Shown here piece after piece: positions 216-22,716 of a DNA stretch of 28,569 nucleotides (the stretch's first letter is position 1; each line of letters opens with the position of its first letter). The DNA is from a virus. The DNA lies in the IMG/VR virus record IMGVR_UViG_3300005935_002039, positions 1-28,569 of that record, one strand, 5' to 3'. Below the pieces are notes generated by a model. The model was given only the letters and a program-made list of their open reading frames with translations, ran no database searches and was not told the DNA's origin. A program made the position numbers and the translations under genes.

Positions 216-410
216 TTACACCTCGCCTTCGGGTCTTCGGCTCTCCTTGAGCTCGTTCCAGATTCTGATGTTATCCTTGTGACATTCCGGACAAATCGGG
301 AGCCTTCTTCTCTTGGGGTCCATTTGTGAATTACGGTAGGGCTTCCTTGCCGAAACAAAGAATTTGTACCCGCATTGGGCGCAGGTTGCTTCTTTTCTTG
401 GACGCTTCAT
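216..410 (-). CDS. Small zinc-ribbon protein (64 aa)
   Basis: A 64-residue basic protein with two CxxC knuckles, C10-x2-C13 and C40-x2-C43, spaced as in a zinc ribbon, with many Lys/Arg residues between them. Such mini-proteins are common in phage replication and recombination operons and may bind nucleic acid or a host protein; the specific role is unknown. The start overlaps the stop of the nuclease gene as ATGA, with GAGAGGGA a few bases upstream, so it is translationally coupled. It resembles the 80-aa zinc-ribbon protein at 2943-3185 in layout, but I cannot show homology beyond the metal-binding knuckles. Confidence 0.8.
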   Translation of the reverse strand: MKRPRKEATCAQCGYKFFVSARKPYRNSQMDPKRRRLPICPECHKDNIRIWNELKESRRPEGEV

Positions 411-1747: not shown

Positions 1748-1760
1748 AGGTCCGTTCCTC

Positions 1761-1770
1761 TGTGGTGGTG
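1761..1770 (-). promoter_or_regulatory. ACCACCACA leader element, nuclease gene
   Basis: Minus-strand CACCACCACA abuts the GAGGA ribosome site of the nuclease gene. The identical 10-mer lies at 2946-2955, with close variants at 4037-4046, 4089-4098 and 2237-2247. Role unknown; the recurrence next to ribosome sites suggests a translational or RNA-binding function. Confidence 0.4.
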
Positions 1771-1793
1771 AAGAGGTGGAAGGCGCGGCGTCC

Positions 1794-1815
1794 CTGCCCA
1801 GCGGCAATCGGGCAG
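1794..1815 (-). promoter_or_regulatory. Small hairpin in nuclease leader
   Basis: CTGCCC and GGGCAG form a 6-bp stem around a 10-nt loop in the 87-nt space between the 129-aa gene and the nuclease start. No T-run follows, so it is not an intrinsic terminator. It may be a leader structure or chance. Confidence 0.25.
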
Positions 1816-1834
1816 AGGCGCACAACCCGTGCGG

Positions 1835-2224
1835 TTACGCCATTTTGATTGTCACCGAGGCCTTGAGCGGTTTGGTGGTAACGAACTCGGCCAGCTTCGC
1901 GCCGACGTCCGGATGATCCGCGAGTACGCGCTCGTACTCTTTCGGGTTGAACACATACTTGGCCGCTTGGACCTTGACCGGCATGGTTTCTCCAGGGATG
2001 TCCAGCCCCATGATAGAATCGAGGTCGGCCGAGTAGCTGAGGCCTCGTTTGACTGTGACCTTCAGCCCGTTCCCCGTGTCCACGGTTTTGCTGCCGTTGT
2101 CGTTGGTCTCGACCAGCGCGGCAATTTGCTCTTCAATCTCGACCCGCTCGATTTTTGCCTCCGCTTCGGCACGTTTTGCTTGAAACAACTGGCCGGCTAA
2201 TTCCTGTAGTGCTGACTCATTCAT
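1835..2224 (-). CDS. Hypothetical phage protein in recombination operon (129 aa)
   Basis: 129 residues. The N-terminal 40 residues are a charged helix rich in Ala, Glu and Lys. A short beta-rich stretch follows (GNGLKVTVKRGLSYSADLD), then a C-terminal region ending with another predicted strand. Small proteins of this plan (N-terminal helix plus a 'KVTVKRG' strand) are frequent in phage early operons, but I cannot attach a function. The start is supported by AAGGAAAAG six nt before the ATG. It sits between the DUF669 protein and the nuclease, so it is likely made with the recombination proteins. Confidence 0.75.
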   Translation of the reverse strand: MNESALQELAGQLFQAKRAEAEAKIERVEIEEQIAALVETNDNGSKTVDTGNGLKVTVKRGLSYSADLDSIMGLDIPGETMPVKVQAAKYVFNPKEYERVLADHPDVGAKLAEFVTTKPLKASVTIKMA

Positions 2225-2332
2225 TGGTCTTTTCCTTGTATGATGGTAAATAGTGCCGGCCTCTCACCGGCCCGGAGGTTCCGCTATTTTATCTTGGCTA
2301 TCAACACCTCTAAGTACCAGCCATTAAGTCGG
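2225..2332. other. 108-bp intergenic gap with possible -10 box
   Basis: No gene is visible. On the minus strand it contains AGATAAAATAG, in which TAAAAT differs by one base from a sigma-70 -10 box, but no convincing -35 lies 16-18 nt upstream. A 5-bp GCCGG/CCGGC stem lies nearer the downstream start. The gap ends with the variant leader ACCATCATACA directly before AAGGA (2237-2247). It may hold a weak internal promoter. Confidence 0.3.
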
Positions 2333-2926
2333 CTACTTTTCCCAGGGCATCTTGCTCTTGACGGGAGCCTTGACGGGGGGAGCAGCGGGGGGTGTCGCCT
2401 TGTAGGCCGTTGGGGCGGCTCCTACCGCAGCGGCTTGCTGTGGGGCAGGCGTATTGGCTTGGTCGGAGTCCGGGGCGGCTGCGGGCGGAGCCGCGGTTGG
2501 AACGTCGATCGCTCTGTAGGCCGTGACGTTATTGTCGGGCTCGCCGGTTCCCGATCTCTCGGCCGACGTGATCTTGACGCGGGCCATGATCTGCTGTCCA
2601 AGCAGCTGGTCCGAGTCCGCGATAGCCGCCAACCCGCAAGCCTGACCCAGCGCGGCCAGTTCGCGAATGCCGATCTCGACGGCTTTCGCGTTGGGGTTCA
2701 TGAGGTTGATGTTTGCGAAGATCCGCCGGCCGTTGAACGTCTCTCCGATCACGACCAGCTCCAGCTTCAGGATTTTTCCGGTCCCGGCCCGAGTGTCCTT
2801 TATCTCCGCGTCATCGACCATGACCGGATACCAACCGGGCGGGAGCGGCTCAAAGGAGCCGGTTGCCGCGTCCTCTCGGCGGGTGTCGAAGTCTTCTCCG
2901 TAAAGTTCGCTGATGTTACCGGGCAT
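2333..2926 (-). CDS. DUF669 family single-strand-binding-like protein
   Basis: 197 residues. The first 125 show the DUF669 pattern: 'PPGWYPVMVDDAEIKDTRAGTG', then alternating strands (LKLELVVIGETFNGRRIF), then the 'NINLMNPNAKAVEIGIRELAALGQACG' stretch of this family. DUF669 proteins are phage OB-fold-like proteins coded beside recombination ATPases and are thought to bind single-stranded DNA. The C-terminal 65 residues are Ala/Pro-rich and flexible and end in PWEK, like the short interaction tails of SSB proteins, though less acidic. AAGGAG lies ahead of the ATG. Neighbours are a Sak4-like ATPase upstream and a Cas4-like nuclease downstream. The DNA-binding role is inferred from family and context. 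Confidence 0.8.
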   Translation of the reverse strand: MPGNISELYGEDFDTRREDAATGSFEPLPPGWYPVMVDDAEIKDTRAGTGKILKLELVVIGETFNGRRIFANINLMNPNAKAVEIGIRELAALGQACGLAAIADSDQLLGQQIMARVKITSAERSGTGEPDNNVTAYRAIDVPTAAPPAAAPDSDQANTPAPQQAAAVGAAPTAYKATPPAAPPVKAPVKSKMPWEK

Positions 2927-2942
2927 GAATTCAATCTCCTTG

Positions 2943-3185
2943 CTATGTGGTGGTGCGGGTGCATCTCATTGACCGCGGTCGCGGCAGGATATTTCGGTTC
3001 AAGACTATTCCGTGAGGCGGAAATTCGTTAAGGATCTCCCTCCGGTGTTCGATGGTATCAGACTTGTAGCACCTGGGGCAGATTTTGTCTTTCCCGTCTC
3101 GGAACGTGCTATCAGCAGAGGTTGTTCTTCTGCACCGATCGCATTTGACGTGAAGCTGATCGGTTTTTCTCTCCCATGGACTCAT
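2943..3185 (-). CDS. Small zinc-ribbon protein (80 aa)
   Basis: 80 residues with C15-x2-C18 and C36-x2-C39 knuckles, a compact zinc ribbon, followed by a basic tail of about 40 residues. Its ATG overlaps the stop of the Sak4-like gene as ATGA, so it is translationally coupled. The last codons (Thr-Thr-Thr-stop) are themselves the ACCACCACA leader element of the next gene. Function is unknown; zinc ribbons in this setting often bind DNA or RNA polymerase, but nothing here decides that. Confidence 0.75.
   Translation of the reverse strand: MSPWERKTDQLHVKCDRCRRTTSADSTFRDGKDKICPRCYKSDTIEHRREILNEFPPHGIVLNRNILPRPRSMRCTRTTT
2946..2955 (-). promoter_or_regulatory. ACCACCACA leader element, DUF669 gene
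   Basis: Minus-strand CACCACCACA, identical to the copy at 1761-1770. It is followed by TAGCAAGGAG and the DUF669 start. It doubles as the last codons of the 80-aa zinc-ribbon gene. Confidence 0.4.
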
Positions 3186-4024
3186 TTCTCGCCCCCGATC
3201 GCTACGGCCTCCGCAGCAGCGGCCTCAACGGCGGTTTGAAAGGCCAAGTAATCGAGGGGGAGCTCGTACGGGAGCTGGCCGAACGCGCCGCGGCCGCCGC
3301 CGGGATGAGCGGGCCGCTTCTGCGTGAACAGGAAGCGCTTGCCGCCGGAGACGTCGATGCCGCGATGTGTCTCTTTACCAAAGCCCTGGTCCTCTTTCTT
3401 GACCACGACCTTGGTATTGCAGAAGAGTATCAGATCGGACCAGCGAAACAACAGGTTCGCTACCTTGTCGTGTACGTCGAACATGAACTGATCGTAGCTT
3501 TCGCCGGCGGGATCGTCGAAGCGCTTCACCTTGACGTGGCCGATGATGATGCTGGCCATGTTCTTCTCGGCGCGAAGGGCGTCGAGTCCGTCGAGCAGCT
3601 TCCGGAACTCGCTCACGGCTGCCGTGTACCCTTTTCCATATCCCCCGTCGACCTTCTCGATGGAGTCGACGTTGTACTGCTGGCAGACGGAATCCCAAAC
3701 CAACGGTTCCAAGGCGCTGGCCGAGTCCACGACAACGGTTCTGTACTCGTGCTCCTCCACGTAAAGCGCCGTAAGCGCTTCCATCAGATTTTGGAAGGAT
3801 GTGCAGGTGGGGAAGACTGGGACGTCCAAGGCGTCTACGCCCTCTTCGCCCTTGACCGGGATCACAACGGGTCCGTTTATCCCGGTCTCGATGATCTTAC
3901 CGTTCTCGTCAAAGGTCGTCCCACATGAGAAGGTCGTTTTACCAATCTTCTCAACGCCGAGTACGATGACCCGGGGCGCTCTCAGCCGGACGCCTCTCTG
4001 AAGTGAGGCAAGTGTGATGGACAT
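3182..4024 (-). CDS. Sak4-like RecA-fold recombination ATPase (AAA_24 type)
   Basis: 280 residues. A Walker A loop lies near the N-terminus (G23-VEKI-G28-K29-T30) and a Walker B strand ends in D100 (RTVVVDSASAL). A third core strand ends in H163 (SIIIGHVKV), the usual sensor position of this group. Length and motif spacing fit the short single-domain AAA_24/Sak4 ATPases of phages, which have a RecA core without long extensions and promote strand annealing or exchange with a partner SSB. The DUF669 protein and Cas4-like nuclease downstream complete a familiar phage recombination set. CAGGAG lies six to eight nt before the ATG. The gene is preceded by a 249-bp non-coding stretch and may begin its own transcript. 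DNA-strand activity is inferred from the family. Confidence 0.85.
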   Translation of the reverse strand: MSITLASLQRGVRLRAPRVIVLGVEKIGKTTFSCGTTFDENGKIIETGINGPVVIPVKGEEGVDALDVPVFPTCTSFQNLMEALTALYVEEHEYRTVVVDSASALEPLVWDSVCQQYNVDSIEKVDGGYGKGYTAAVSEFRKLLDGLDALRAEKNMASIIIGHVKVKRFDDPAGESYDQFMFDVHDKVANLLFRWSDLILFCNTKVVVKKEDQGFGKETHRGIDVSGGKRFLFTQKRPAHPGGGRGAFGQLPYELPLDYLAFQTAVEAAAAEAVAIGGEK

Positions 4025-4273: not shown

Positions 4274-7200
4274 TTATTCTGATAGCCTCAGTTTCTTCAG
4301 TTCGCGCAACCGTTTTCCGTATGCGGTCAGCTTCTTGGAAGGACCCATGATGGCGGTCGTCTTGCCTTTGCGGAATACCTTCAGCGCCGCCTTGATCTCT
4401 TCGCCGCCAACCGACCCGAGTAGATCCTGGGCGAGTTTTTTCTTGTCCGGCTCCGCGTTGGGAGAGGTGGCGTCATAGGCCAGCTTGCCTATCCCCGCCT
4501 TTCTGTGATCAGCCTTGGTCAGCTTCTTGGTCGTGGCGATAAGGGCCTGGGCCTCCTTGATCATGACCAAGGCTCCGGCTTTCTTGGCTCCGGCGTTCTT
4601 GCCGGATGATATCACGTCCCGCCGTTCAGACCAAACGCCCGACAGGTTCCTCGATACTCGATCCATCAAGATCCATTCGCCCAGCTCTTCCACGCTCGCA
4701 TCTCCAGACTTCTTCTTCCGTGATATCAGATCGAGCCGATCGTAGAAGTCGCCGATAGAACGGGACGTCTCCGGACGCAAGAAGAGCGTACCGAACAAGG
4801 GCAGCGAAGACGGCTTGGTCAGATCGATGTCCGATCGGTCGACCGCCAGCTTTATCGTGTCCAGCATACGCCGGTACAGGTTGCCGGTGTACCCGTTAAT
4901 CAAGTGATCGATCTTGGCAGGGCTGTATCCGCCCGGGACGTGTGCGCCTATGAGCTTGGCCAGCCACGTGGTCGTTACCTTGGCCTGATCTTTCTTCAAG
5001 CTGTACTTGGCGTACTGTGGGACGATGTCGGCGTCCTTCCAGTCCTTATTCGCAACCGTGTCCACGGCAGGAGAGAGAAGCGCCACATTTCTCAGGAACC
5101 CGCGGATCGAGGTAATCTCAAGGGGAAATGCGCCGTCAAAGAAAACTTTGAGCGCTTCATCGAGCGCTCCCGGGTTTCTCTTGTCTTCGAGGTACGCGCA
5201 CGGGATAGCCCCGAACAGAGATCCTACCTCAAACGGCAACGGAACGCGGAAGATAGGTTTGTCCATGCTCGGCCCGCCGACGTGGATATAGCCCCATTTC
5301 TCATGAGCCGGCAGGTCCTTCCACCAATCCTTGTCGCGGTTCCGGAAATAGTTCATCAACGACACGAACGTCATCCCGCCCAGCGTTCGCCGGGCTGTTC
5401 TCGCGAGGTTCCCCCTTTTGGTCTGGATCTTGCCCCACGGCAGGGGCTTTGCGACGCCCAGGGCTCGGGAGAGTTTCATCACGCTCTGAACCGAGGCGTT
5501 GAAGAATAACACGGTTTCGTTGATGGCTCGGCCGGCTGATCCGGACTGAGAAAAGTTGACCGTGATATCTTTGGCAGCACACGACGCCAACACGGCAGCA
5601 TCAGCGTCAGTGCCCCACGTCTTCAGGCCGTGCTTGTAAGCGCCCCTGAATTCCATCAGACGCGGGCCTACCTCGGAGTGCGATAGAACTTCCCTCAGCC
5701 CTGACAGGACCCCCATCGTTCTCAGCTTGCCCAGCTTCGTTGTCGCCGTCGCTCTCTTGGCCGCTCTCTTGGCTGCCGCCATGTCTTGCCCGATCATGCC
5801 GGCGATGTCGAGACCCAGGGCGTGATACATCTGCGCTTGGTCAGTGCCGGCGATGTCGAGAATCGATCCGTGGATAGTTGATATCACGGGAATATGAAAA
5901 TGATAATCGGCAAACGCAAACGCCGTCAGGGTATCGCGAAGTGGATTACGCAGCAGCCCGAACGCGGGATTGAGCCCGGTAGCGCCCAGGCGTTGCAGCG
6001 CGACGGCTCTTCTACTCAGTCCGCCAAGCGGGCCACCAAGAACGCTGTCTTTCGCCATGCCCTGAATGATCGGCATAAGCGTTGAGTCGAGCTCGAAGAA
6101 TCGACGCTTGCCGTTGACGGTGACTGCAACGACGTTGTCCTTTCCCTTGTACTCTTTGGCCGGCGTGAAGACTGTGAGCTGTTCTTGCCAAGTTTCCATC
6201 ATGGCGGCCGCGACTTCTTCCGGGTCGGCTCCCAGCTGGATAGCCTTCTCCGCTATCTCTTTCTTGATCTTTTCGATAGAGAAGGTGGTCGCCTCTTTCG
6301 GAGCGCTTACCTCTGCTATCATGCCGCCCAGCGCGTCGGCCGTGCCTCCCTCGCCTTTTTGCGAGTCATGGAACTTCACCAGCGCCCGGAGGACGTCTGC
6401 TTGCTGGGCTACCTTGATGATATGCTCAGCCTGAAGGACCATGGCGTCAAGCGGATTGTGGATCTCCCGGCCGCTTCCCTTGATACGATAAACGCCGCGG
6501 CCTTTGCCGGCGCGACCTTTGCGAAGCTCTTTCTCGCTGAACCGGCGGGAGAACGGAACGTACACGGGGTTCATCAGCTCGATCTTTTCAAACTCGGTTT
6601 CCGTCATGGCTCCGGACTCTACCAGTAGATGCAGGATACGCCGGCTCCAGGCGGTTACTTCGTCAAGGACGGCGTCAAACATCTCTGACCCCAGCTCTTT
6701 CACAACGGCGTCCGCCTTGGCCGGCGATATGCCCGATTGAATTCCGCGAGCATGCAGGTATGTGGCGCGTTTTGCGACGGCATAGGAAACCCAGTCATCG
6801 ACAACCTTGTCTCCTAGCTCTGCTATCGGCTCCAGCGCCTTTCTAAGCCCTATTCCCGTCTTCTGCCCGTAGAGATCCACGGAATCGCCAAGAACAGAAT
6901 GAAGGGTACGCCCGCCCGCGCTACGTGCGTGCATGGTGATCAACATAAATGGGTTGTCGCTTGGCCGCAGCTGGCTCAGGTCGGCCCCGGTACGTTGCAT
7001 AGCCTGAAGGACCGGCATGGCTGAGCTGTGTATCTTGGCGTCGAAAGCCTGTAGCACAGTCGAGATCCGTTGTACCGAGTAGTCTTTCTTGGGCGGAGCG
7101 ACAAAGGCCTGTACGGTTTCTTGCGGTGTCTGATGATTAAACCGTGATACCAGCAGTTCGACTTCTCGGAGCTTCTTGGCTTCGTCGGGATTGTCGGCCA

Positions 7201-10200
7201 GGTATTCAGTTGTGAACCATGCGTACAGCCTGGGCGCGCGCGCCTGGATCTCGTCACTGCCCGTCAGGTATTCTCGGATGAATTCGGCGAATCCTTCCGC
7301 TCGATATCCGCCAGCGGGCCGAGTGTCGCCGTAGAGATCGCGCCCCAACTGCGCGAGTTCTCTCGGGATGCCGGGCGGAAGCCCGTGCTTTTTGGACCAC
7401 CATTGGCGCTGATGATCGAAGTAATGCCCCAGCTCATGCAGTGCAGTGGTGATATCGCGGACGTCTTTCAGTCTCGCCAGCCCCAGCGCCGGGTTGTACC
7501 ATCCAAGAGCCTTCCGCCTGACGATGGTTGCGGGTCCTCGAACGGTCAACCGCGGCCACAGCCGCTTGATCGCGTTGATCACGTCTACTTTTTGAGTCTG
7601 GTCGCTGGCCCGCTTGGTCGGGTGGATCTTTCCTTTACTCAGGGCGTCTCTGCTGGATAAAGCGCCGGACGGGTTGGCGTACATGGCTTCGTCGTCTTCG
7701 GCCGCTACGACACTGTCCACTCTGGTATGAGCGATAAGGCGCTGATAGGCCGCGTCAAACTCAGCACCGACGGGGATGAAGGCCCGCATCCGATAGCCTT
7801 GCTTCTCGATCATCGCGCCCATGTTCCGGAGTAGATCAAACTCGGACGGCGACGTCAGGCCGACAACCTCTATCCGGAGATCCCCCGAGACCCTTCCGCT
7901 GATAATTGTCCAACCGTTCTCCAGCCCGATTTGTCCGCCGCCGCTCAAGAGCTGCTGAGCTTCGTCGGCAGACGGCGTCTTAATCTCCCGGTTGACCCCC
8001 AGCGTTTTAAGGGTCTCTTGGATCTTGGAGTTTGGCACCACGCGGCCGAGGTATCGCTCGCCGTCCACAGTGACAGCGCGACGAATCCGCGGAGATCCGG
8101 AGAGCTTAGTCCATACCGGCAGCAGCGCTCCGGTTATCAGGTGCATAGGACGTTTCTCAAGATCCGGAGCGGCCTCTAAGCGTTCATCCCATTCCTTCCC
8201 GACTTCTTCCTTTTCTGCTTTTTCATACCGAAAAGAGGCCTCGTCTCGCGTGATCATCTTCTTACCTGCCGCCGGGCTCCACCTTGCCCACATCCTCACG
8301 ATCCGGCCGTCTGCGTCGGTGCGGTCGCCTACGTCCTGAAGCACGTAAGACACCCCGCTGCGTTTGTTCCTTACGAAAAGAGCGCCGGATATCACCCTTA
8401 CCCGGTCCCATGAAACCTTTGACGCATGTTCGTACACTGCCAATTCTACGTGCCGAGTTTCAGCGCTCGTGTTTGCGTCTTTGCGTACAACGGTTTCGCT
8501 TACCTTCTCGATCCTAACGGCGTCGATCTCTTCCATGCCGGTGTCCAGCGTGTCGGTCGCTATTGCTATCTCGATCTCCCGGGCCAAGATTTTCGAGTAG
8601 GCGTCGAACACCTTATTTTGCATATCGATGTTCAACGAGAGAAGCCGGTTAAGGAACTTGTTGGTCTGCATCTCTTCGATGCCGTTCGACGCGGCTCCGT
8701 CATCAGTCCGCATCTTCAGTCCGGTCTGCCGCTCAAACTCGTCAATGTCTATATCGTTACTTCCGTCTACGATATCGTGCATCAGTTTTGACAGGGCGTC
8801 GTGAGCGTGAGACCCCTCAAGGTTATCAGACTCAGAGAACATTCCGCCGCCGCCGGTATCACGCTGGCCACGGGAGAGCGCCCCTAACTGCTCAAGCCGT
8901 CGCGCAATCGTTGAGATGAACCGCTTGTGCCCGGGAAGGTCTGTCTCGACCAGCTTGTATTCTGGAGTGTGTACCTGATTGCTTCGATGGCTCCGGCCCA
9001 ACCCCTGTATGGCTTTGTCGGCCCGCCAACCCGGCTGAAGCACGTAATGGACGCGAGGCTTTTGGTTTTTCCTTGTCGGGTCCGCGTGATACGAAGCGCC
9101 CGTCCCGCCGGCCTGGGAGAAGATCAAGATATCACGATCGCCGTCCATGAACGCTGCAATGTCTGCCGCGTTGGCGCGGCTTCCGCGTTTCTGGATCTCG
9201 CGCTTGCCGCTCTCCCCCTTGACAACCCGGCGTTTTCTGCCCGTAACCTCGGACACATTCTTGAATCCAAAATGGTTAATGAGCTGATCGAGCGGAGCCT
9301 CGGGCGTAGCGATTGACGCCATCTGCTCAAGCAAGGCATCTCTTTTGGCTACCGCTTCTCTGTTAAGGATAGGCTCGCCGTTGCTGTCAGCTGCGGCCCG
9401 GATTCGAGTATTCCCGTCCGCGTCTTGGTATTCCTCCATCTGCGTAACCGGGAAAGACTTCTCAATCATCTGCATCAGTTCATCGCGAGGCGTGATATCA
9501 AGAGACTCAAGACTGTCTTCGTCCGTCATACTGGCCAGCGCCCGCTCCGTTGACGCCTCAAGCGTGTTGACCAGCTGGACCACAACCGCTTTTCCGTCCG
9601 CGATATCTTTCTCGACGGCTTTGATTACGGAAGGCATCTGCAAGGACGTGAGCACTTGGTTAAAGAAGAGCTGATGCCTTCCCCAAAACGCCGACATAGC
9701 TTTCGCCCTGGCTCCGCGGTCAACTTGGACCTCCCCGCTTACATTCTCAAACCCGGCAGTCAGTTCAAGTGCTTCTTCGATGTTTTGCAGTACCGTCTGC
9801 CATCCCGAGGCCAGGGTGTTAAAGATTCCCTGTTGATCGACACTCAGAGCATGGGTAAGGCGCGAATACCCGACTCCCTTAAAGGACAGCGTTCTTGCCA
9901 AGTAAAGCCCCATCGCTTTCATGTCTCTTGCCGTTACCTCCATGGCAGCAAGCCCGCCGGTAGAGATTTGGTCTATGAAATCTTCCCGGTTCCTGAACGG
10001 CGTACCCTCTCCCCACAACCCGAGTCTATCAACGTACGCGAGATTGCTTACCTCAGTCGCGCCAGTGGCCGACATGTAAACGATCTTGGCCTTGGGCAAT
10101 CGGCGCTGGAGCTCGATCCCCATAAGCGCCTTGTTGCTTGGGGGCTTCCTTCCCCGTTTGCCGCGGCTGGTAGTGGCGTTACCCATGTTGTGAGATTCGT

Positions 10201-13200
10201 CCATGACGATCACGCCGTCATAGTCTTCGCCGAACCAGTCGGCTACCTGCTCTATCCGCGTTTTCTTGCCCTCCTTGCGGCCCGCGGCCGACTGGCCGAG
10301 GGTGTCGTAGGTCGCAAACAAGATCCCCTTGGATTCCTTGATATCATCGCCCACCTTTGTCTTGTTGATAAGAAAGACGTCCCCTTCGTCTTTGCCTGTA
10401 GCCGACCAGTCACGTTTAGCGTCCTTGAGTAGACTGGACTTCTCAGAGATCCAGACGGCTTTCTTGCGTCCTTGGTTCAGGTTGTCAAGGATAAAGCCAG
10501 CCGCTACCCTGCCTTTTCCGGACCCGGTCCCGTCTCCGACAAAGATGCCCTTTGTCTTGGCCTCGGGCACAGGTCGGCCCGGACGCAGCTCTTGAAATTC
10601 TTCCTGTTCTTCTGTGGAAAGAAGGATAGACTTCTGGTGCGCTTCACCGCCCAGGGCTATCGCCTCAAGCTGTGCATCCGAGAAGACACCTGCCTTGATA
10701 AGCGCGGCTGAAATCTTGGGCCGATACTTTACGGGCGGAGATTTGACGCTGGCCATGGCGGCAGACTCGACCAGGGGAGACGGATGCTCCTGCGCCCCCT
10801 TGACCAAGGTGCTCGGGGAGTAGGTCTCAAAGGCTCCTCCCTCTTCCTCTTCGTTTGCCCTTGACTCTTCGGCGGTCTCTACGTCTACCCCAGGAACGTC
10901 GGAGGGTACCCCTCCATCGTCGCCGACATCCTCAGATGCAGTGTGTCCATCAGTTCCTGAATCGTTTCCTCCGGATTGTTCCCCGGACTGTACTCCGGAC
11001 TTTCCTCCCCCAGTAGCCACGCCGCCGCCTTTTCCTCTTCCGCCCCTGCCAGTGTGTTCAGCATGTCCCTCATCGCTTCCATCGCCCCCCTCTTCACTTC
11101 CTCCATCGTCCCGCTCTCCATCGCCCACATCATCAGCGCTATCGGTGGCCACACCCCCGTCGGTAACGTCGCCTCCAGCTCCTTCGCCGCCTTCTGCGCC
11201 TTCAGGCTGATCGGTAACGTCCATGGATCTTGCATCTCGGACCTCCTTCAGTGTTTCAATCAGCTCGCTTATCGTTTCGACTTCGCCTGTAACCATCTCC
11301 CCGCCCGGGGTTGTCTTGTCAATCACGAGTAAGCGCGTCCCAAACCGAGTACCGTACTTGGCGTAGACATCTCCCGAAACTCCGACGTTCGCCCTTACCT
11401 TGTACGTCTTCCCAATCTTGCTCCACCATGCCGCAAACCTCGGACGCCCGGGAGCCATGCCGCGGCCTACGATCGAGACCAGCCGGCCGCCGGGCTGGAG
11501 AACCTTGAGAGCTTGCTCGATATGCTTTGCGCCGGTCAACGGCTGCATCTTGCCGCCCATCCGTTTGCCGGCTTGGCTAAACGGGGGGTTCATGACTACC
11601 ACAGTAGGCTTGATATCATCAGGCAAAACATTAGACAACTGCTCGGCGTCTTCAGTGAACACCCTGTCAGCGAACCAAGAAAGCAGAGCAGCCCGCCTCT
11701 TGGAAAGTTCGTTCCCGATAACCGTTGCCCCGGTAGTGGACGCATGAGTAGCCAAGCTGCCGGTCCCGCCGGAAGGTTCTAAGAGAACGTCTTGATCGGT
11801 TACGCCCGCAACCCAAACAGCGGCATAAGCATAGTCAGCAGGCGTGGAGAACTGCTGCATGAGATCCTTTTCCCCGGAGCGCATGGTTTGGGTCGGGACC
11901 TGCTGCAAGATCCCCTGGATCTCCGTTACGGCCTTCTGTGCGGTAGCGACATCGACGTCCACCTCTGAGCCCACCAACCTATTGACAGCGAACTCAAGCG
12001 CCTCGTAGGCGTCGGTGCTCCGGTACCTGTTCTCGGCCCGCGTCCCGCCATAGGCCAGATCGGCAGCCTTAAACAAGGCTTGCCAAGTCAACTTCTCTCC
12101 CGCTGCAATCTTCTCAATGAGCTTATCCGCCAAGGCCGCTACAGGCAGTTCTTTGTCAGAAACTTCACCCTCTTTTTCGGTCGGCTTGGATATCTCGGCC
12201 TTGAACGCCTTCAGATACTCGCGAGCACCCGCTCCACTCGACATCGCCCACCTCACAAAATCCTTGAGATCGCGACCGGCCGCGACGAATTCAGCATAGG
12301 CGGCATGCAGGTGGGGTTTTATCTTCTCGTAGGTCTCTTGGTCAAAGGACGGCATCCCCGCCCCCATCCTCTGACTACCCCCGAATAGCTCGTGCAACGC
12401 TTGCGCTGCTTCCCCTACTCCCTTGACTCCGTGCTTTGCCGCAGACTCGATCAGTACCCGGGGTCCGCGCTGTGCTTCGGTTTCTCCCTGGGCTGTCTCT
12501 TCGGCCTCGGGGGCGGGCTCCCCAGGCGTGATATCAGCTTCCTCTTCGTCCTTCATCTCTTCCTCGACTTCGTTGATGATATCATCGAAGTCCGCGTCCG
12601 AGACCTCCCCGAGATCCTCAGTCTTGACCGCTTGCTCTTCGGCTGCTGCCTCGGCTTCGGCGTCATCCGGAACCTCGACATCCCCAAGATCGTCCTCGGG
12701 CATGGCGTCCTGCATCTCAACCAGAGTCATCCCAGTCATGTCATCGACGGTTTCGTACAGGTCCGGCCGCGCCTCCTGAAGCGCCTGGGCCGCCTGCAAC
12801 CACTCCGGACCCTCTGTCACTGGCTCGGGCGGGGGAGGCAAGTCCTCTTCTGCCGGAGGTGCGGTCTCTTCTTGCTGCTGCTTCGGCGGCAGCGGGACTT
12901 CCCGCGCCTCGCGCAAGAGCTGAGACAACCGGGCCCGGTCCTCTGCTGCCATGGCCGGCAGCTTGTTGTCGGCGAAATCTTTCCTACTCGGCTGAACGAT
13001 GTCGGCCAGGGCGTCCGCCATTTGCGGATTTCGGAAAGCCCACGCCAAGGCTCCCGTCTTCGTGGTCAGTTGCGCCTTTTCGAGAGACCGGCCGAAAGCG
13101 ATATCGAAGTCCCATCCTTTTTTGTGTAGAGCCTCGGCTTCGTCATAGGCCGATCTCGTGGTTTGTTCCGGCAACCCGTAAGACTGCGCGAGACCGGATA

Positions 13201-14152
13201 CAACCTGATCCCTTTTCTTGAGCGCGTCCTGAACCAAGGAGGTTTTCACTATCCCGGTCATGCCCACTGCCATTAGGGTTTGAATGACCGTGTCGCGTAT
13301 GGTACGCATCTGATTCTCGGGCGTGATAGCATCCGGTTCAACGCCGCTGAAGGCCTGATTATAGTTGTCGACCATCTCGGTAAGGACCTCTTCCGGCAGC
13401 TCTTGTGCTGCGGAGATCCCCACGGCTTTCAGGATTCCTTTTATCCCCGCCTTACTCACAGTGCCCTTCCCCCCGAGGATCTTCTCAAAGCCGCCCCAGC
13501 CAACAGCGGAGAACGCCCCGGCTATTCCGCCCTCAATCAACGCAGCTCGGCCGACGTACGCCCGTTTGTCTTTCCCGGTAAGGCCGGCGTCGTTGGCTTC
13601 CGTGATAGCTTGGTTCCCCCGGATTATCCCGAACATGCCAATAATCCCGAACTCACCCAAGGGAGCAAACGCGGCGGCCGTCGCTACCGATCGGGACGCC
13701 CCGCGTACTCCGGTCAAGATCCACTCAGGGATAGCTCCCCCCTCGTTTGACTGCCTTGCCGCTTCGTCAAAGAGATTACTCTCGTGAGCCAGCCTGTCGG
13801 CCGTCTCTCCGCTGAACGGTCTGGCGGCAAGGCTCCCGGCATCGAGCACAGCTTGCGCTACGCCAGCGCCCGCACTGCGCCCGATCGGCTCATGCCTTTG
13901 CTTGAGACTCTTGCTCAAGCCTTCCAAAGTCTGCCGGCGCTCGCGGATTTCGTCAACGGCACGATATCGGTCTTGTGCGTCCTTCCGGACGGCCTTGTCA
14001 CCCTTGATCCGATCATACCGTATCAAGAACTGCTGAGCCTGATCTTCTGACCACGCGCCCAACGCCACCCGGGCCTCGGCGATAGCGTCCGGGCTCACTC
14101 CAGCAGTAAGAACGTCTGTGGCTTCTTTCGAGTAGTCCACGGGGTTGGTCAT
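4274..14152 (-). CDS. Giant large polyvalent protein: methylase, Strawberry-notch helicase, metallopeptidase
   Basis: One open frame of 3292 codons, a third of the window. In order: a charged N-terminus; glycine-rich hydrophobic stretches (about 155-178 and 203-220); an acidic Pro/Glu linker (about 420-570); an adenine-methylase-like domain with EPSGGTGS at 792 and NPPF at 855-858; a Gly/Asp linker (about 973-1090); a Strawberry-notch/DarB-type helicase with Walker A GDGTGSGKGR at 1206 (K1213), DESH at 1318-1321, SAT at 1361-1363 and arginine motif QGLGRSHR at 1716-1723; a gluzincin-like peptidase, H2239-E-L-G-H2243 with downstream E2286/E2290; and an LPD38-like C-terminal region including GLNPAFGLLRNPLRD near 2728. 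P1 DarB, with methylase and helicase, is carried in the virion and protects incoming DNA from restriction. A similar injected role is inferred here. The ATG overlaps the previous stop as ATGA; no strong ribosome site of its own is seen. Confidence 0.9.
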   Translation of the reverse strand: MTNPVDYSKEATDVLTAGVSPDAIAEARVALGAWSEDQAQQFLIRYDRIKGDKAVRKDAQDRYRAVDEIRERRQTLEGLSKSLKQRHEPIGRSAGAGVAQAVLDAGSLAARPFSGETADRLAHESNLFDEAARQSNEGGAIPEWILTGVRGASRSVATAAAFAPLGEFGIIGMFGIIRGNQAITEANDAGLTGKDKRAYVGRAALIEGGIAGAFSAVGWGGFEKILGGKGTVSKAGIKGILKAVGISAAQELPEEVLTEMVDNYNQAFSGVEPDAITPENQMRTIRDTVIQTLMAVGMTGIVKTSLVQDALKKRDQVVSGLAQSYGLPEQTTRSAYDEAEALHKKGWDFDIAFGRSLEKAQLTTKTGALAWAFRNPQMADALADIVQPSRKDFADNKLPAMAAEDRARLSQLLREAREVPLPPKQQQEETAPPAEEDLPPPPEPVTEGPEWLQAAQALQEARPDLYETVDDMTGMTLVEMQDAMPEDDLGDVEVPDDAEAEAAAEEQAVKTEDLGEVSDADFDDIINEVEEEMKDEEEADITPGEPAPEAEETAQGETEAQRGPRVLIESAAKHGVKGVGEAAQALHELFGGSQRMGAGMPSFDQETYEKIKPHLHAAYAEFVAAGRDLKDFVRWAMSSGAGAREYLKAFKAEISKPTEKEGEVSDKELPVAALADKLIEKIAAGEKLTWQALFKAADLAYGGTRAENRYRSTDAYEALEFAVNRLVGSEVDVDVATAQKAVTEIQGILQQVPTQTMRSGEKDLMQQFSTPADYAYAAVWVAGVTDQDVLLEPSGGTGSLATHASTTGATVIGNELSKRRAALLSWFADRVFTEDAEQLSNVLPDDIKPTVVVMNPPFSQAGKRMGGKMQPLTGAKHIEQALKVLQPGGRLVSIVGRGMAPGRPRFAAWWSKIGKTYKVRANVGVSGDVYAKYGTRFGTRLLVIDKTTPGGEMVTGEVETISELIETLKEVRDARSMDVTDQPEGAEGGEGAGGDVTDGGVATDSADDVGDGERDDGGSEEGGDGSDEGHAEHTGRGGRGKGGGVATGGGKSGVQSGEQSGGNDSGTDGHTASEDVGDDGGVPSDVPGVDVETAEESRANEEEEGGAFETYSPSTLVKGAQEHPSPLVESAAMASVKSPPVKYRPKISAALIKAGVFSDAQLEAIALGGEAHQKSILLSTEEQEEFQELRPGRPVPEAKTKGIFVGDGTGSGKGRVAAGFILDNLNQGRKKAVWISEKSSLLKDAKRDWSATGKDEGDVFLINKTKVGDDIKESKGILFATYDTLGQSAAGRKEGKKTRIEQVADWFGEDYDGVIVMDESHNMGNATTSRGKRGRKPPSNKALMGIELQRRLPKAKIVYMSATGATEVSNLAYVDRLGLWGEGTPFRNREDFIDQISTGGLAAMEVTARDMKAMGLYLARTLSFKGVGYSRLTHALSVDQQGIFNTLASGWQTVLQNIEEALELTAGFENVSGEVQVDRGARAKAMSAFWGRHQLFFNQVLTSLQMPSVIKAVEKDIADGKAVVVQLVNTLEASTERALASMTDEDSLESLDITPRDELMQMIEKSFPVTQMEEYQDADGNTRIRAAADSNGEPILNREAVAKRDALLEQMASIATPEAPLDQLINHFGFKNVSEVTGRKRRVVKGESGKREIQKRGSRANAADIAAFMDGDRDILIFSQAGGTGASYHADPTRKNQKPRVHYVLQPGWRADKAIQGLGRSHRSNQVHTPEYKLVETDLPGHKRFISTIARRLEQLGALSRGQRDTGGGGMFSESDNLEGSHAHDALSKLMHDIVDGSNDIDIDEFERQTGLKMRTDDGAASNGIEEMQTNKFLNRLLSLNIDMQNKVFDAYSKILAREIEIAIATDTLDTGMEEIDAVRIEKVSETVVRKDANTSAETRHVELAVYEHASKVSWDRVRVISGALFVRNKRSGVSYVLQDVGDRTDADGRIVRMWARWSPAAGKKMITRDEASFRYEKAEKEEVGKEWDERLEAAPDLEKRPMHLITGALLPVWTKLSGSPRIRRAVTVDGERYLGRVVPNSKIQETLKTLGVNREIKTPSADEAQQLLSGGGQIGLENGWTIISGRVSGDLRIEVVGLTSPSEFDLLRNMGAMIEKQGYRMRAFIPVGAEFDAAYQRLIAHTRVDSVVAAEDDEAMYANPSGALSSRDALSKGKIHPTKRASDQTQKVDVINAIKRLWPRLTVRGPATIVRRKALGWYNPALGLARLKDVRDITTALHELGHYFDHQRQWWSKKHGLPPGIPRELAQLGRDLYGDTRPAGGYRAEGFAEFIREYLTGSDEIQARAPRLYAWFTTEYLADNPDEAKKLREVELLVSRFNHQTPQETVQAFVAPPKKDYSVQRISTVLQAFDAKIHSSAMPVLQAMQRTGADLSQLRPSDNPFMLITMHARSAGGRTLHSVLGDSVDLYGQKTGIGLRKALEPIAELGDKVVDDWVSYAVAKRATYLHARGIQSGISPAKADAVVKELGSEMFDAVLDEVTAWSRRILHLLVESGAMTETEFEKIELMNPVYVPFSRRFSEKELRKGRAGKGRGVYRIKGSGREIHNPLDAMVLQAEHIIKVAQQADVLRALVKFHDSQKGEGGTADALGGMIAEVSAPKEATTFSIEKIKKEIAEKAIQLGADPEEVAAAMMETWQEQLTVFTPAKEYKGKDNVVAVTVNGKRRFFELDSTLMPIIQGMAKDSVLGGPLGGLSRRAVALQRLGATGLNPAFGLLRNPLRDTLTAFAFADYHFHIPVISTIHGSILDIAGTDQAQMYHALGLDIAGMIGQDMAAAKRAAKRATATTKLGKLRTMGVLSGLREVLSHSEVGPRLMEFRGAYKHGLKTWGTDADAAVLASCAAKDITVNFSQSGSAGRAINETVLFFNASVQSVMKLSRALGVAKPLPWGKIQTKRGNLARTARRTLGGMTFVSLMNYFRNRDKDWWKDLPAHEKWGYIHVGGPSMDKPIFRVPLPFEVGSLFGAIPCAYLEDKRNPGALDEALKVFFDGAFPLEITSIRGFLRNVALLSPAVDTVANKDWKDADIVPQYAKYSLKKDQAKVTTTWLAKLIGAHVPGGYSPAKIDHLINGYTGNLYRRMLDTIKLAVDRSDIDLTKPSSLPLFGTLFLRPETSRSIGDFYDRLDLISRKKKSGDASVEELGEWILMDRVSRNLSGVWSERRDVISSGKNAGAKKAGALVMIKEAQALIATTKKLTKADHRKAGIGKLAYDATSPNAEPDKKKLAQDLLGSVGGEEIKAALKVFRKGKTTAIMGPSKKLTAYGKRLRELKKLRLSE
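10885..11235 (-). CDS. Candidate overprinted ORF inside the giant gene (116 aa)
   Basis: A 116-codon ORF in the +1 frame relative to the giant gene, covering its Gly/Asp/Ser-rich linker. The ATG at 11235 is preceded by a perfect AAGGAGGT with five nt spacing. The predicted protein has mixed composition and helix-like stretches (for example KRGAMEAMRDMLNTLAG and EETIQELMDTLHL), four Trp and many Met, whereas the main frame here is low-complexity. Caution: the main frame's GNN codons force G into the third position of the +1 frame and make stop codons rare, so an open frame is partly expected, and the AAGGAGGT also encodes Leu-Lys-Glu-Val of the main protein. No family is recognised. Confidence 0.4.
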   Translation of the reverse strand: MQDPWTLPISLKAQKAAKELEATLPTGVWPPIALMMWAMESGTMEEVKRGAMEAMRDMLNTLAGAEEEKAAAWLLGEESPEYSPGNNPEETIQELMDTLHLRMSATMEGYPPTFLG

Positions 14153-15321
14153 TTGGACTTACCGCTCTCCCTGATCTTGGCGCTCAGTGCTTCTCGGAAC
14201 GCCTTGAGCCTTTTACGCTTGGCGGCAAACACAGTCTCCGCTATCAGCTGATCGCGCTTCATCCCGTCCAACTCAGGTCCGGCCACCTTGCCTGTCGCCT
14301 CTCGGACCTTGGCGCGAGCCGTGATAGCAGCGTCCTTGGCGGTGTTCACGATCCCCACAATATTGTTCCAGTTTGCGATGACCATGGGACGTGTGGCGGG
14401 CGCAACCTTGGAGAGATCGGGGATCTTGACGCCGCTTGCCTCTTTCGCTTTGAGCTTGCTATCCTCGAACATCCCGGGCTTCTTCCGACGAAATTCGACA
14501 AGCGCCCCGGTCTCGGGGTCCACGTCGTCCTCGTACTGGCCGGTTTGGTCCAAGTTGGGGTTGACCGGCGGAGGCGGCATGTTCAAGGCTTTCTTGAGCT
14601 GCAATAGTTCGACGGCCCTAGCCATGACGTCCTCGTGCTTGGGCAGGGTTTCACTGCTTGGATTAAGCATACCCTTGTAGGCGGAATCGTAGGCATCGGC
14701 CACGTCCTTCGACGTGATAACAGACTTGTCATCCCCTACCTTCTTGGGCACCCCGTCCTTGTCCCAACCTATCAGCATCCCCGTCTTGGGATCGAGGAAG
14801 GTCGTCTGCTCAAGCCGCTCGGCCGGAGTAGGCGTGTCGGCCTTCAGCGCCCCTTCCCTCTCGTTGTCCAGCTGTTTCGCTCTGAGCTTAGAAATAATCT
14901 CGGCCTTTTCCTTTGGCCGAAAGTCGTCGCTCTCGCGAACCTTTTGTATCGCCCGATTGTACTTCTCCCATTCGGCCTGATGCTTGGCCGTGTAAAAAAG
15001 GCCGATATCGCCGATCTTCAGCTTGTGCTCAAAGATCGCCGACTGTTCGCCTATCCGGGCCGCTAACTCAGCAGCTTCCAGCCGGTCCTCCTGGGCGCGG
15101 TCTTGGAGGTCGAGCTGATGCTCGCGATTGGCCTCGGCCGCGTGCTCTTGGTGGGCGAGCTTCTCCCGGGCCTGCTGATCCTGCCGGGCCCGCTCGCGCT
15201 CGGCTTGGTTGCTGGCCCGCTCTTCTTTGAGCCGCTTGCTCGCGGTCTGCCCGTATCCGGCACCGTACGCCAGTTGCGTCAGGGGAGTAACAGAAGCGTC
15301 ATGTTTGACTACGATAGGCAT
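14149..15321 (-). CDS. Coiled-coil protein, probable internal virion or tail component (390 aa)
   Basis: 390 residues, very rich in Glu, Lys, Arg, Ala and Gln. Residues about 28-105 form a long helical, coiled-coil-like segment (repeats of ER, AR, QD and EH). A middle region with small beta-like patches (TGMLIGWDKDG) follows, and the C-terminal third is again helical and basic. No catalytic motif is visible. It lies just before the giant polyvalent gene, and their stop and start overlap as ATGA, so the two are translationally coupled and may be packaged together like internal virion proteins of T7-like phages. AAAGGATG precedes the ATG. The assignment rests on position and composition. Confidence 0.75.
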   Translation of the reverse strand: MPIVVKHDASVTPLTQLAYGAGYGQTASKRLKEERASNQAERERARQDQQAREKLAHQEHAAEANREHQLDLQDRAQEDRLEAAELAARIGEQSAIFEHKLKIGDIGLFYTAKHQAEWEKYNRAIQKVRESDDFRPKEKAEIISKLRAKQLDNEREGALKADTPTPAERLEQTTFLDPKTGMLIGWDKDGVPKKVGDDKSVITSKDVADAYDSAYKGMLNPSSETLPKHEDVMARAVELLQLKKALNMPPPPVNPNLDQTGQYEDDVDPETGALVEFRRKKPGMFEDSKLKAKEASGVKIPDLSKVAPATRPMVIANWNNIVGIVNTAKDAAITARAKVREATGKVAGPELDGMKRDQLIAETVFAAKRKRLKAFREALSAKIRESGKSK

Positions 15322-15334
15322 AATGAATCATCCT

Positions 15335-15883
15335 TTAGATGAAGTTGCCGACAGCCCCGCCGTAGGCTTGCGCGAGCGCAATGATAGCAGACTGATCCGG
15401 ATAGGCGTCTGTACGTCCCTCGATTACCCGCATTTTGAGCTGCGTAGCAGCGTCTCCGGAACGATCGAGCGCCGCTTGTTTCTGCCGTTCGTACCCCAGC
15501 GCCATGGTCGGCGCGACGGTCGTGTTAGCCATGCCTGAGGACGTCAGCTGCTGTTGCATGCGAGCCCGCCCTTCATCGTACGAGGTGACGATATCATCGC
15601 GTCTCTGCCCGGAGACGTCGTCTGCCAGCCCAAGCAGCTGCCGATACCGTTTCTCGTTCGCACCCTTGGCATCGCTGTAGGCAGTGTTGTAGCCACGGGT
15701 AGCGCTACTTAAAGAACCCTTCATGCCGCGAAGATACCTTGCTGCCGCCTTCTGCCGGGTAGCTTCCGATTCTTTCTGCCAAGCAAGCAACTCGTGCTGA
15801 TAATCCCATTGCGCATTGTTCTGTGTGACCGCGCTCCGGCCCAAGGCGACATTGTTGTAAGCGGTTGGCTGGATGTACTGCAT
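15335..15883 (-). CDS. Hypothetical structural protein (182 aa)
   Basis: 182 residues, mostly helical and rich in Gln, Ala and Arg (AWQKESEATRQKAAARYLRGMKGS, then GYNTAYSDAKGANEKRY). The C-terminus is small and glycine-rich (AYGGAVGNFI). I recognise no family. Its place between the fibre/glycosyltransferase genes and the 390-aa coiled-coil protein, separated from the latter by 13 nt, makes it a likely minor virion protein such as an internal core or tail-tip component. AGAGGAAAC gives the ribosome site for the ATG at 15883. Confidence 0.7.
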   Translation of the reverse strand: MQYIQPTAYNNVALGRSAVTQNNAQWDYQHELLAWQKESEATRQKAAARYLRGMKGSLSSATRGYNTAYSDAKGANEKRYRQLLGLADDVSGQRRDDIVTSYDEGRARMQQQLTSSGMANTTVAPTMALGYERQKQAALDRSGDAATQLKMRVIEGRTDAYPDQSAIIALAQAYGGAVGNFI

Positions 15884-15935: not shown

Positions 15936-16541
15936 TCAAAGCTCCCGGCACCCGGCACATCTTGGCCCCGCCGCCAAGTCTGGAGTCGTATCCATATCAA
16001 TTGACTGGTATTTGTGGATGATGTACGCATCAACTGACGGCCATTCATGAAACCTGTCTGATACTGCACTTTGCGGCAGCATGGCTACTTCTGACGAAAG
16101 GGCCGACCAAGTGGATGCAATGTTGTAATGCCGTTTGCGCGGATAACGCTTTCCCAGGCACAGCTTAAGCGCTTTCTTCCAGACTTGTTCTCCAATCGGA
16201 GATCCCGCAAAACAGAAATATGGAGTTCCCGTGTCTGACGAAACAAACGCGCCGTGATCCAACAGCGTGTCGAACGGTCGAAGAGGAATAGTGTCGGCGT
16301 CCACGTAGAACCCGCCGAACGTCATCAGCATCCAGTAACGCACAACGTCAGCCAGAAGACGAGACGGCAGGTCAACATCGAGAAGGCCCCCCCAGCCGTC
16401 AGCGGAAAAACCTTTAGGCACTTCGTTATATACGCGAACATCATACGACGGCATGATGGACTGATAACGCTTGGCCGTCTCGTTTACGTCAGTCGCGCCA
16501 TCGCCCCAAAAGTCATGTAGCTGAATCAGTTTCGGTATCAT
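15936..16541 (-). CDS. GT32-type glycosyltransferase with DxD motif
   Basis: 201 residues. The N-terminus MIPKLIQLHDFWG matches the 'IPKxIHQxW' start of GT32/Och1-like and capsular polysaccharide transferases. The core shows D65-V-V-R68, then G76-G77-F-Y-V-D81-A-D83, the sugar-nucleotide and metal-binding DxD motif of the Gly_transf_sug family. These enzymes transfer a hexose from a nucleotide sugar. It lies directly after the putative fibre gene (17 nt gap), so it may glycosylate a virion protein or alter host surface glycan during infection; neither is shown. AAGGGGGG precedes the ATG. The DNA here and in the last part of the fibre gene looks somewhat less GC-rich than its surroundings, suggesting a mosaic exchange. 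Confidence 0.82.
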   Translation of the reverse strand: MIPKLIQLHDFWGDGATDVNETAKRYQSIMPSYDVRVYNEVPKGFSADGWGGLLDVDLPSRLLADVVRYWMLMTFGGFYVDADTIPLRPFDTLLDHGAFVSSDTGTPYFCFAGSPIGEQVWKKALKLCLGKRYPRKRHYNIASTWSALSSEVAMLPQSAVSDRFHEWPSVDAYIIHKYQSIDMDTTPDLAAGPRCAGCREL

Positions 16542-18340: not shown

Positions 18341-18568
18341 TCAGCTCGTTGTTACCGGGTTGAAGTCACAGGCCGTGATATCACCATCGTTCGCGTACAA
18401 CGTGTTTGCTCCGCCGCTGCGAAGCTGAAAGATCCCGCCGGCCGGGTATCCGACATTGCCGTCCGCCGGAACGGACCCGCCCCAGTCAATCCCCTTCAGC
18501 GCCTCGGCAATAAGCCGAAAGGCCTGCCGGACATCGGGGTCGACTGTGTTGGGTATCCTCAATCTCAT
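18341..18568 (-). CDS. Small virion-associated protein, paralogue of 20934-21155 (75 aa)
   Basis: 75 residues. The C-terminal 40 carry the pattern G-Y-x2-G-x2-F...G-G...L-Y-x-N-x-G...C-D-F-N, shared with the product of 20934-21155 on the other side of the 784-aa tail gene. This short beta-type pattern occurs in phage structural proteins, often near capsid or tail genes. The N-terminal 30 residues are helical (VRQAFRLIAEALKG). The ATG overlaps the stop of the 784-aa gene as ATGA, so the two are co-translated. Its exact place in the virion is unknown. Confidence 0.75.
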   Translation of the reverse strand: MRLRIPNTVDPDVRQAFRLIAEALKGIDWGGSVPADGNVGYPAGGIFQLRSGGANTLYANDGDITACDFNPVTTS

Positions 18569-21155: not shown

Positions 21156-21156
21156 C

Positions 21157-21694: not shown

Positions 21695-21934
21695 TCACTT
21701 TTCAAGCAACCCCAGGACCCTGCTAACCTTATCGCCGATTTCATTTATCCTCTGGTCAACGCTTCGTATCCATTCCAGCCTGTTCCGACACTCTTCGCGC
21801 ATGGCGTCGAGCCGTGCCTTCAGCTCAGCGAGATTGCGCTCTTGTGCTATCACCTTGAGCGCCAGCCATCCCCACGCCGTAGCATGAATTGTGACCAACG
21901 CCATCATATCGGAATGTGCGGCAAGGAACTTCAC
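21695..21934 (-). CDS. Transmembrane plus coiled-coil protein, holin/spanin-like (79 aa)
   Basis: 79 residues from a GTG at 21934, which overlaps the stop of the connector gene by one base (TAGTG) behind GGGGGAG. One hydrophobic segment spans about residues 9-30 (ALVTIHATAWGWLALKVIA), followed by a heptad-like coiled coil to the C-terminus (about 31-76). This plan fits an inner-membrane spanin or a single-span holin-like protein. With a lipoprotein gene next, a membrane lysis pair is plausible, but neither function can be fixed from sequence and no endolysin is seen in the window. Confidence 0.7.
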   Translation of the reverse strand: MKFLAAHSDMMALVTIHATAWGWLALKVIAQERNLAELKARLDAMREECRNRLEWIRSVDQRINEIGDKVSRVLGLLEK

Positions 21935-22716
21935 TACCAGCTCTCCCCCTTGTAGTCGATTGGGTACGACGATCCCCAGCCCCTACGGGGGGTCCTTGAG
22001 ATCATGTTATCGTTTTCGCCCATGGCACCGAAATGCTTGGCTCCCGCCTGCCGATCTCGCTTGACGGCCGCAGCCAGCAAGCGCGTAAACTCGTCCCAGT
22101 ACACGCCACGCTCACCGTTCGCTCTCTGCTCTGCTATCGCCACACAACTTGACTCCAGCACCGGGGCGTACTTCATGCCGCCCAGGGGATACGGAGCAGC
22201 AGCAGTCAGCTTCCCGCTGAAGGTCTCATACTTATACGTCAAGGTATAGGCATCGTCAGGAGTAGGGTAGAACATGATTTCTTGCCGTTGCCCTGTCGTG
22301 CCCGTTCCGTCCTTGTACCGTGTGGCAGCCATCTCCGGCCGGCTATTGGTGCTATCGGCCTGAAGGCGAGCGAGGATCAGCCCCTGTCCAACCAGCGGGA
22401 TAGGGTAGCAATGGACCTCGGGCTCAAACGTCAAATCACCAATCAACCGGCTGAAGTCGTCCGGTAGATCCACCTCTCCCTCGCCTGAAACTGTGACCAG
22501 GGTCGTGGTCGGCCTCATGAACGACCATTCATAGCCTGATTCGATTCCTTCAACGGCCGGGGGAAAGTAGAACTGACGGACGCCAGCCTGAATGTACTCA
22601 TCGATCTGGCTTGTCTGCGCGGTTGTCCACGCTGAAGAGTCCCGGCCGTAGCCGAGATATCCGCCAACGGTAGCACACAGGTCGTGATAAGCGATTGACA
22701 GGGTTGACTCTGACAC
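21934..22716 (-). CDS. Head-tail connector / tail tubular protein A-like (260 aa)
   Basis: 260 residues from a GTG at 22716, preceded by AAGGAG. The N-terminal helices (LCATVGGYLGYG, then QIDEYIQAGVRQFYFPP) match the 'I-x-Y-x-x-x-G-x-R-x-F' opening of podovirus head-to-tail adaptor or tail tubular A proteins. A beta-rich middle (LVTVSGEGEVDLPDDFSRLIG and QEIMFYPTPDDAYTLTYKYE) and a helical C-terminal half are also typical. It would form the ring joining portal and tail tube. Its place after the capsid genes and before the tail-tubular-B-like gene is that of T7 gene 11. A strong hairpin stands 22 nt before its start. Confidence 0.72.
   Translation of the reverse strand: MSESTLSIAYHDLCATVGGYLGYGRDSSAWTTAQTSQIDEYIQAGVRQFYFPPAVEGIESGYEWSFMRPTTTLVTVSGEGEVDLPDDFSRLIGDLTFEPEVHCYPIPLVGQGLILARLQADSTNSRPEMAATRYKDGTGTTGQRQEIMFYPTPDDAYTLTYKYETFSGKLTAAAPYPLGGMKYAPVLESSCVAIAEQRANGERGVYWDEFTRLLAAAVKRDRQAGAKHFGAMGENDNMISRTPRRGWGSSYPIDYKGESW

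Follow-up and report, generated by a model that had tools for sequence, protein, structure and literature searches.

The polyvalent proteins of phages were defined by Iyer 2017 (PMC5512222), who named a methylase-SNF2 pair among their domains and recorded its Strawberry-notch version "in a few instances". In the same study the zincin occurred more often than any other domain in the polyvalent proteins of phages and plasmids and was proposed to process the chain, zincins were described in fusions with SWI2/SNF2 ATPases and with adenine methylases, and LPD38 was restricted to phage-type polyvalent proteins (PMC5512222). The coupling of a methylase to a helicase has a proven anti-restriction role in P1 DarB (Iyer 2017, PMC5512222), which has an N-terminal capsid signal and is present at about 40 copies per virion (PMC9024508). 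In Burkholderia phage JC1, gp69 comes after gp67 and gp68, and 51 unique peptides of it were detected in virions purified on CsCl (PMC9144972). P22 ejects gp7, gp16 and gp20, and putative ejection proteins of very large size, such as the 5007-aa Pavtok gp27, have been noted before (PMC8402733). How very large enzymes pass the narrow phage portal is unsettled, as is the division of such proteins into carrier and payload. A search of the literature on phage Strawberry-notch methylases returned Iyer 2017 alone, and no description of the exact protein reported here was found.

The window, the whole stretch of DNA analysed here, is a 28,569-base IMG/VR virus record, and its minus strand carries a giant ORF (start 14152, end 4274) that encodes a polyvalent protein of 3292 aa in one uninterrupted frame. 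An earlier sequence-only reading of this DNA had reported the frame but not its strand. A chance ORF or an assembly artefact was considered and rejected: the longest ORF on the opposite strand of 4274-14152 is at most 258 aa, and a second contig, L005, has an identical 3292-aa ORF (100% identity), so the giant ORF is neither chance nor a one-off artefact. From the N- to the C-terminus the domain order is N6-adenine methylase, Strawberry-notch helicase, zincin metallopeptidase and LPD38. The sequence-only reading had put a methylase, helicase, peptidase and LPD38 in one chain, and profiles, motifs and predicted folds bear it out in all four, as they do in the motif positions it gave (EPSGGTGS 792, NPPF 855, GTGSGKG 1208, DESH 1318, SAT 1361, QGLGRSHR 1716 and HELGH 2239). 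It had also named a profile search and structure prediction as checks. The former found AAA_34, Helicase_C_4 and LPD38 in Pfam and the methylase via PHROGs; the latter, carried out for two segments, returned a methylase fold and a zincin fold, but a C-terminal model whose LPD38 region matched no known fold. With at least two unrelated enzymatic domains, an LPD/zincin hub (LPD38 at E 1.5e-23, and the zincin) and adjoining virion genes, the giant is a member of the described polyvalent class, and presence in the virion and injection are suggested by analogy. Like the subset in Iyer 2017 that it most resembles, it combines a methylase-SNF2 fusion, a zincin, LPD38 and virion-gene neighbours.

All features of the giant lie on the minus strand. 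Its N-terminal conserved region (residues 1-415; 12908..14152) was delimited by identity to relatives: residues 11-415 are 35% identical to L060, and matches extend over residues 355-415 in L053 and L055 and 318-415 in L057. The N-terminus is mildly hydrophobic, with a best 19-residue Kyte-Doolittle mean of only 1.72, which gives little reason to call it membrane-like, as had been done from sequence. A small helical domain, to which no function is assigned, occupies residues 556-660 (12173..12487) and is found in a different place in P0003, between the methylase and the helicase.

Residues 635-990 (11183..12250) comprise a four-helix N-terminal piece and a gamma-class N6-adenine methylase, as judged from AlphaFold2, structure matches, motifs and phrog_6263, a phage DNA-methyltransferase family that PHROGs places at residues 766-917 (E 3.4e-8). 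FSTP (768-771), EPSGGTG (792) and NPPF (855) correspond to the TP cap, motif I and NPP(Y/F) of the gamma class (HsdM/TaqI). In the AlphaFold2 model of this segment (38 relatives in the alignment; pLDDT 88.5) the predicted fold is that of a gamma-class N6-adenine DNA methylase of the HsdM/TaqI kind, and the best structure matches are the PacII M subunit (HsdM-type; Z 18.1), M.TaqI (17.6) and type I HsdM proteins (17). The four helices at model positions 36-115 recall the LPD36 layout, in which GXG(G/A/S) lies between helices 2 and 3 of four, but the giant has GGTxAEG, not GXGU. No target-recognition domain was identified for the methylase, and the usual gap of 124-158 residues between methylase and helicase is, in the giant, an acidic Gly/Asp-rich linker evident in the sequence (residues 990-1110; 10823..11185).

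The helicase is identified by its profiles as the Strawberry-notch type, both AAA_34 and Helicase_C_4 having been found. AAA_34, the first ATPase lobe, spans residues 1122-1445 (9818..10789; Pfam E 1.4e-104) and contains the Walker A motif GTGSGKG (1208), DESH (1318) and SAT (1361), and Helicase_C_4, the second lobe, spans residues 1620-1874 (8531..9295; Pfam E 1.5e-83) with QGLGRSHR at 1716. The segment that follows (residues 1875-2150; 7703..8530) is a candidate SnoC wHTH and is conserved alongside the helicase in P0002 and P0003, which have the methylase-helicase in common with the giant at 42-51% identity and do not share its C-terminus. Searches of PDB sequences with the helicase segment or the methylase segment gave no matches. 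Across 41 unique methylase-helicase proteins, collected with scan patterns that excluded the counted motifs apart from a few members from a separate scan with zincin patterns, NPPF was retained in all 41, EPSxGxG in 40, FSTP in 39, DExH and SAT in 38 each and Walker A in 35. Since the catalytic motifs are retained in most of these proteins, their conservation suggests that methylase and helicase are active enzymes.

The zincin metallopeptidase (residues 2188-2322; 7187..7591) was recognized by alignment, model and structure matches, and by HELGH (2239-2243), D2246 and the zinc ligand E2286. H2239, E2240, H2243 and E2286 are invariant across 48 sequences, a conservation that is partly built in because most loci were picked by the pattern EGFAEF or HExxHY; many loci whose HExxH variant fails the HExxHY pattern nonetheless keep HExxH. 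The model (pLDDT 84.9) has the elements H14-24, E29-31, E43-46, E51-54, H60-74 and H109-123, the same succession of helix, three strands, HExxH helix and Glu helix as the polyvalent zincin layout of Iyer 2017 (PMC5512222). The solved structures that it matches are zincins, lethal factor at Z 8.9 (125 residues, 3.4 A) and PPEP-1 at Z 8.3, in agreement with the relationship reported there, and in HELGHYFD an aspartate lies three residues past HExxH, as in the phage-type clade of that study. A C-terminal profile searched against PDB sequences gave only weak PPEP-1 matches (E 0.013).

The C-terminal conserved region, mostly helical by alignment and model, covers residues 2480-3292 (4277..6715), the conserved block around LPD38 beginning near residue 2480. 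LPD38 itself is present (Pfam E 1.5e-23), at residues 2941-3114 (4811..5332), some 210 residues further on than the position of about 2728 at which an LPD38-like segment had been proposed. Foldseek comparison of the 1118-aa C-terminal model with the PDB returned nothing significant, so the LPD38 region has no known fold by this comparison, a result that does not prove a new one. We mapped domains on giant ORFs in 35 viral loci (methylase-helicase), 80 viral loci (zincin-C-terminal block) and seven genome loci, the window gene being present once in each of the two viral sets. The zincin precedes the C-terminal block at a spacing of 161-230 (median 173) in 77 of the 80 unique proteins having both, most of which were found with zincin patterns, which biases retention but not spacing; in the other three the zincin falls inside the match of the block. 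The part N-terminal to this module is anywhere from 451 to 4369 residues long, and wherever a methylase was found it lies N-terminal to the zincin (27/27). By this domain mapping, the zincin and the LPD38 block, about 1,000 residues together, are a fixed C-terminal module, and everything N-terminal to it varies. The window's architecture is not unique, because the order methylase, Strawberry-notch, zincin and C-terminal block recurs in L021, L028, L031, L046, L050, L080, L085 and L129.

Among the near relatives, payloads have been exchanged on one C-terminal end, which is retained at 41-48% identity. L053, L054, L055 and L057 are syntenic with the window, having downstream of the giant homologues of its Sak4 and DUF669 genes and of two further genes, at 38-73% identity; in L056, a fifth near relative, no homologues of the window's downstream genes were found in the stretch compared. 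L057, which lacks the entire Strawberry-notch segment (residues 976-2152), is 61% identical to the giant over 562-975 and 48% identical from 2153 onwards. Both L057 and L054 are truncated at a 5' contig edge, and their N-terminal content is incomplete. L053 has the C-terminal end at 47% identity with an inorganic pyrophosphatase and neither methylase nor helicase; the payload of L055 is a pyrophosphatase, an N6 methylase and an ordinary SNF2 motor, and that of L056 a methylase and an SNF2 motor. The lineage is a natural experiment, in which near relatives differ in the presence or type of payload on one carrier, so that the carrier, the zincin's role and the advantage brought by the methylase-motor can each be tested separately.

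Two further observations concern related giants. One in L003 (7352-16222) has the methylase and Strawberry-notch helicase without LPD38, and a PBECR2-like nuclease match at its N-terminus falls slightly under the Pfam cut-off (E 6.5e-6). L137, a contig of Sporomusa ovata DSM 2662, encodes a 3915-aa methylase-helicase giant with the C-terminal block in the layout of viral locus L049; it sits in the genome of a cultured bacterium and is a possible laboratory prophage. P0005 as query gave no match in the viral contigs.

The three-gene ejection layout is exemplified by P22, with genes in the order 7, 20 and 16, and by T7, with genes 14, 15 and 16. Comparably, the giant closes a run of three adjacent same-strand genes within the window's tail cluster, the position of gp16, although no P22 gp16 or T7 gp16 domain was found in it with Pfam. 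The proposed ejection trio begins with a 182-aa gene (15335..15883, minus strand), which has same-slot homologues in seven loci, and continues with a 390-aa gene (14149..15321, minus strand), which has them in six and overlaps the start of the giant by the four bases ATGA. Iterative profiles stay in register: all matches of the 182-aa family are first-slot genes (seven loci), and all those of the 390-aa family are second-slot genes (six loci). Of the 68 zincin-block loci whose upstream DNA is long enough, 67 have two same-strand genes directly upstream of the giant. VvAW1 and BA3 encode first-slot proteins of PHROG 598 (DNA ejection), and that of ct8d5349 falls in PHROG 418 (internal virion protein); the window's own 182-aa and 390-aa genes had no family match, and their putative ejection role is assigned by slot. 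BLASTP of the window's neighbours against those of JC1 and ct8d5349 found no homology, and the evidence for a shared slot is therefore positional, together with the same-slot homologues seen among viral contigs. An SU10-type tail adaptor (21934..22716, minus strand; Pfam PF24175, E 1.1e-11) marks the virion gene cluster, and together with the two genes in the ejection slot it upholds the virion setting that the sequence-only reading had presumed.

Elsewhere on the minus strand, the virion cluster includes a glycosyltransferase gene (15936-16541; Gly_transf_sug with DXD, E 1.4e-8) between a fibre-like gene and the gene that opens the proposed ejection trio. Two short ORFs (18341-18568 and 20934-21218), also on the minus strand, have a similar C-terminal pattern, LYxNxGxxTxCDFN, and lie on either side of a tail gene (18565-20919). 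A tandem repeat coding GEGEG (25801-25864) lies within a scaffold-like gene. The genes for the Sak4-like annealing protein, the DUF669 protein and two further products (407-4024, minus strand) form a conserved block, which follows the giant in L053, L054, L055, L057, L118 and L119.

An injected multi-activity protein is the likeliest role of the giant, and we think it probable that it serves a short-tailed-type virion as third ejection protein and carries an anti-restriction payload. The giant would be made together with the virion genes and, along with the two short upstream products, be brought into the head near the portal by the conserved regions at its two ends. From its position and its relatives, we infer packaging and subsequent exit with or before the DNA. 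The fold, the motifs and the P1 DarB precedent suggest that the Strawberry-notch motor then travels along the entering duplex as the linked N6-adenine methylase marks it, and that DNA so marked is spared by host restriction enzymes. The zincin, nearly always placed between payload and C-terminal block, would most likely cut the payload off its carrier. More tentatively, the zincin-LPD38 block and the N-terminal region may be a general ejection chassis that fills the third ejection slot of several short-tailed lineages, with payloads swapped in and freed in the host by the zincin, a generalization that we regard as possible rather than probable.

Other roles for the zincin deserve consideration. 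Once injected, it could cleave a host protein as an effector, with the methylase-helicase as one among several independent payloads: conflict systems commonly use zincin effectors, the option is listed in Iyer 2017 (PMC5512222), and the fold is similar to that of secreted zincins. Yet the distance from zincin to C-terminal block is near-constant (77/80 proteins), and the zincin is retained in forms of about 1430 aa with no recognised payload; a processing or structural role therefore fits better, and we consider an effector unlikely. The zincin might instead mature the giant within the procapsid before DNA packaging, only a fragment being injected, as proposed for P1 DdrB, which is cleaved before packaging (Iyer 2017, PMC5512222). 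We think this improbable, as the N4 virion RNA polymerase has a zincin and is nevertheless packaged whole (PMC5512222), an observation that also weighs against the payload-release step of our preferred explanation.

The methylase-motor, for its part, might act on the chromosome of the host or on proteins bound to it, serving takeover of transcription or replication and not protection of phage DNA, given that Strawberry-notch belongs to the SWI2/SNF2 clade, another member of which, RapA, frees RNA polymerase once transcription is over (Iyer 2017, PMC5512222). The predicted methylase fold is, however, that of the HsdM and M.TaqI DNA adenine methylases, and DarB is a proven anti-restriction precedent for methylase-helicase coupling, which makes host takeover distinctly unlikely. 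It is very unlikely, given the strong conservation of the catalytic motifs, that the giant is mainly a structural ejection protein whose payload adds little in this lineage, even though ct8d5349 and HTVC204P keep only an LPD38 protein (1280 and 1253 aa) in which no enzyme was found.

P1 DarB likewise joins an adenine methylase to an SNF2-clade motor; it is a head protein that protects DNA in cis, and it is plausible by analogy that the giant works in the same way. A direct homologue of DarB was nevertheless rejected at the sequence level: the best BLASTP match is to the DarB methylase part (E 0.12), with nothing significant to its helicase, and no LPD38-block or zincin match was detected in DarB by BLASTP. 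Of the Strawberry-notch/DarB similarity that had been anticipated, the former therefore stands on its two profiles and the latter falls. JC1 gp69 (4515 aa; PMC9144972), which does match DarB (6e-22), has a methylase, a helicase and a C-terminal LPD38 and is the last of three consecutive genes (196, 510 and 4515 aa), as in the window; it shares the LPD38 region with the giant (BLASTP E 1e-9) but differs in its DarB-type COG4646 helicase, LPD3 and N-terminal transglycosylase. Bacteroides phage BS-TP4 gp3 (5391 aa) has a methylase, Strawberry-notch helicase, HExxxH motif and LPD38, but is 23% identical and its gene directly adjoins the portal gene. Vibrio phage VvAW1 gp01 (NC_020488; 3640 aa), annotated as DarB-like antirestriction, has the giant's order of methylase, SF2 helicase, HExxHYLD peptidase and LPD38 and is likewise third after a DNA-ejection gene, whereas its methylase is called Eco57I-type, its helicase is SNF2 and not Strawberry-notch, and identity is 23% over 2164-3088. 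The addition of a peptidase to the methylase and helicase, singled out as notable in the sequence-only reading, is thus shared with VvAW1 and involves the commonest polyvalent domain of Iyer 2017. The polyvalent class, the zincin fusions and the VvAW1 domain order were already known; what this locus adds is the anatomy of carrier versus payload, in an unusually clean comparison within a known class.
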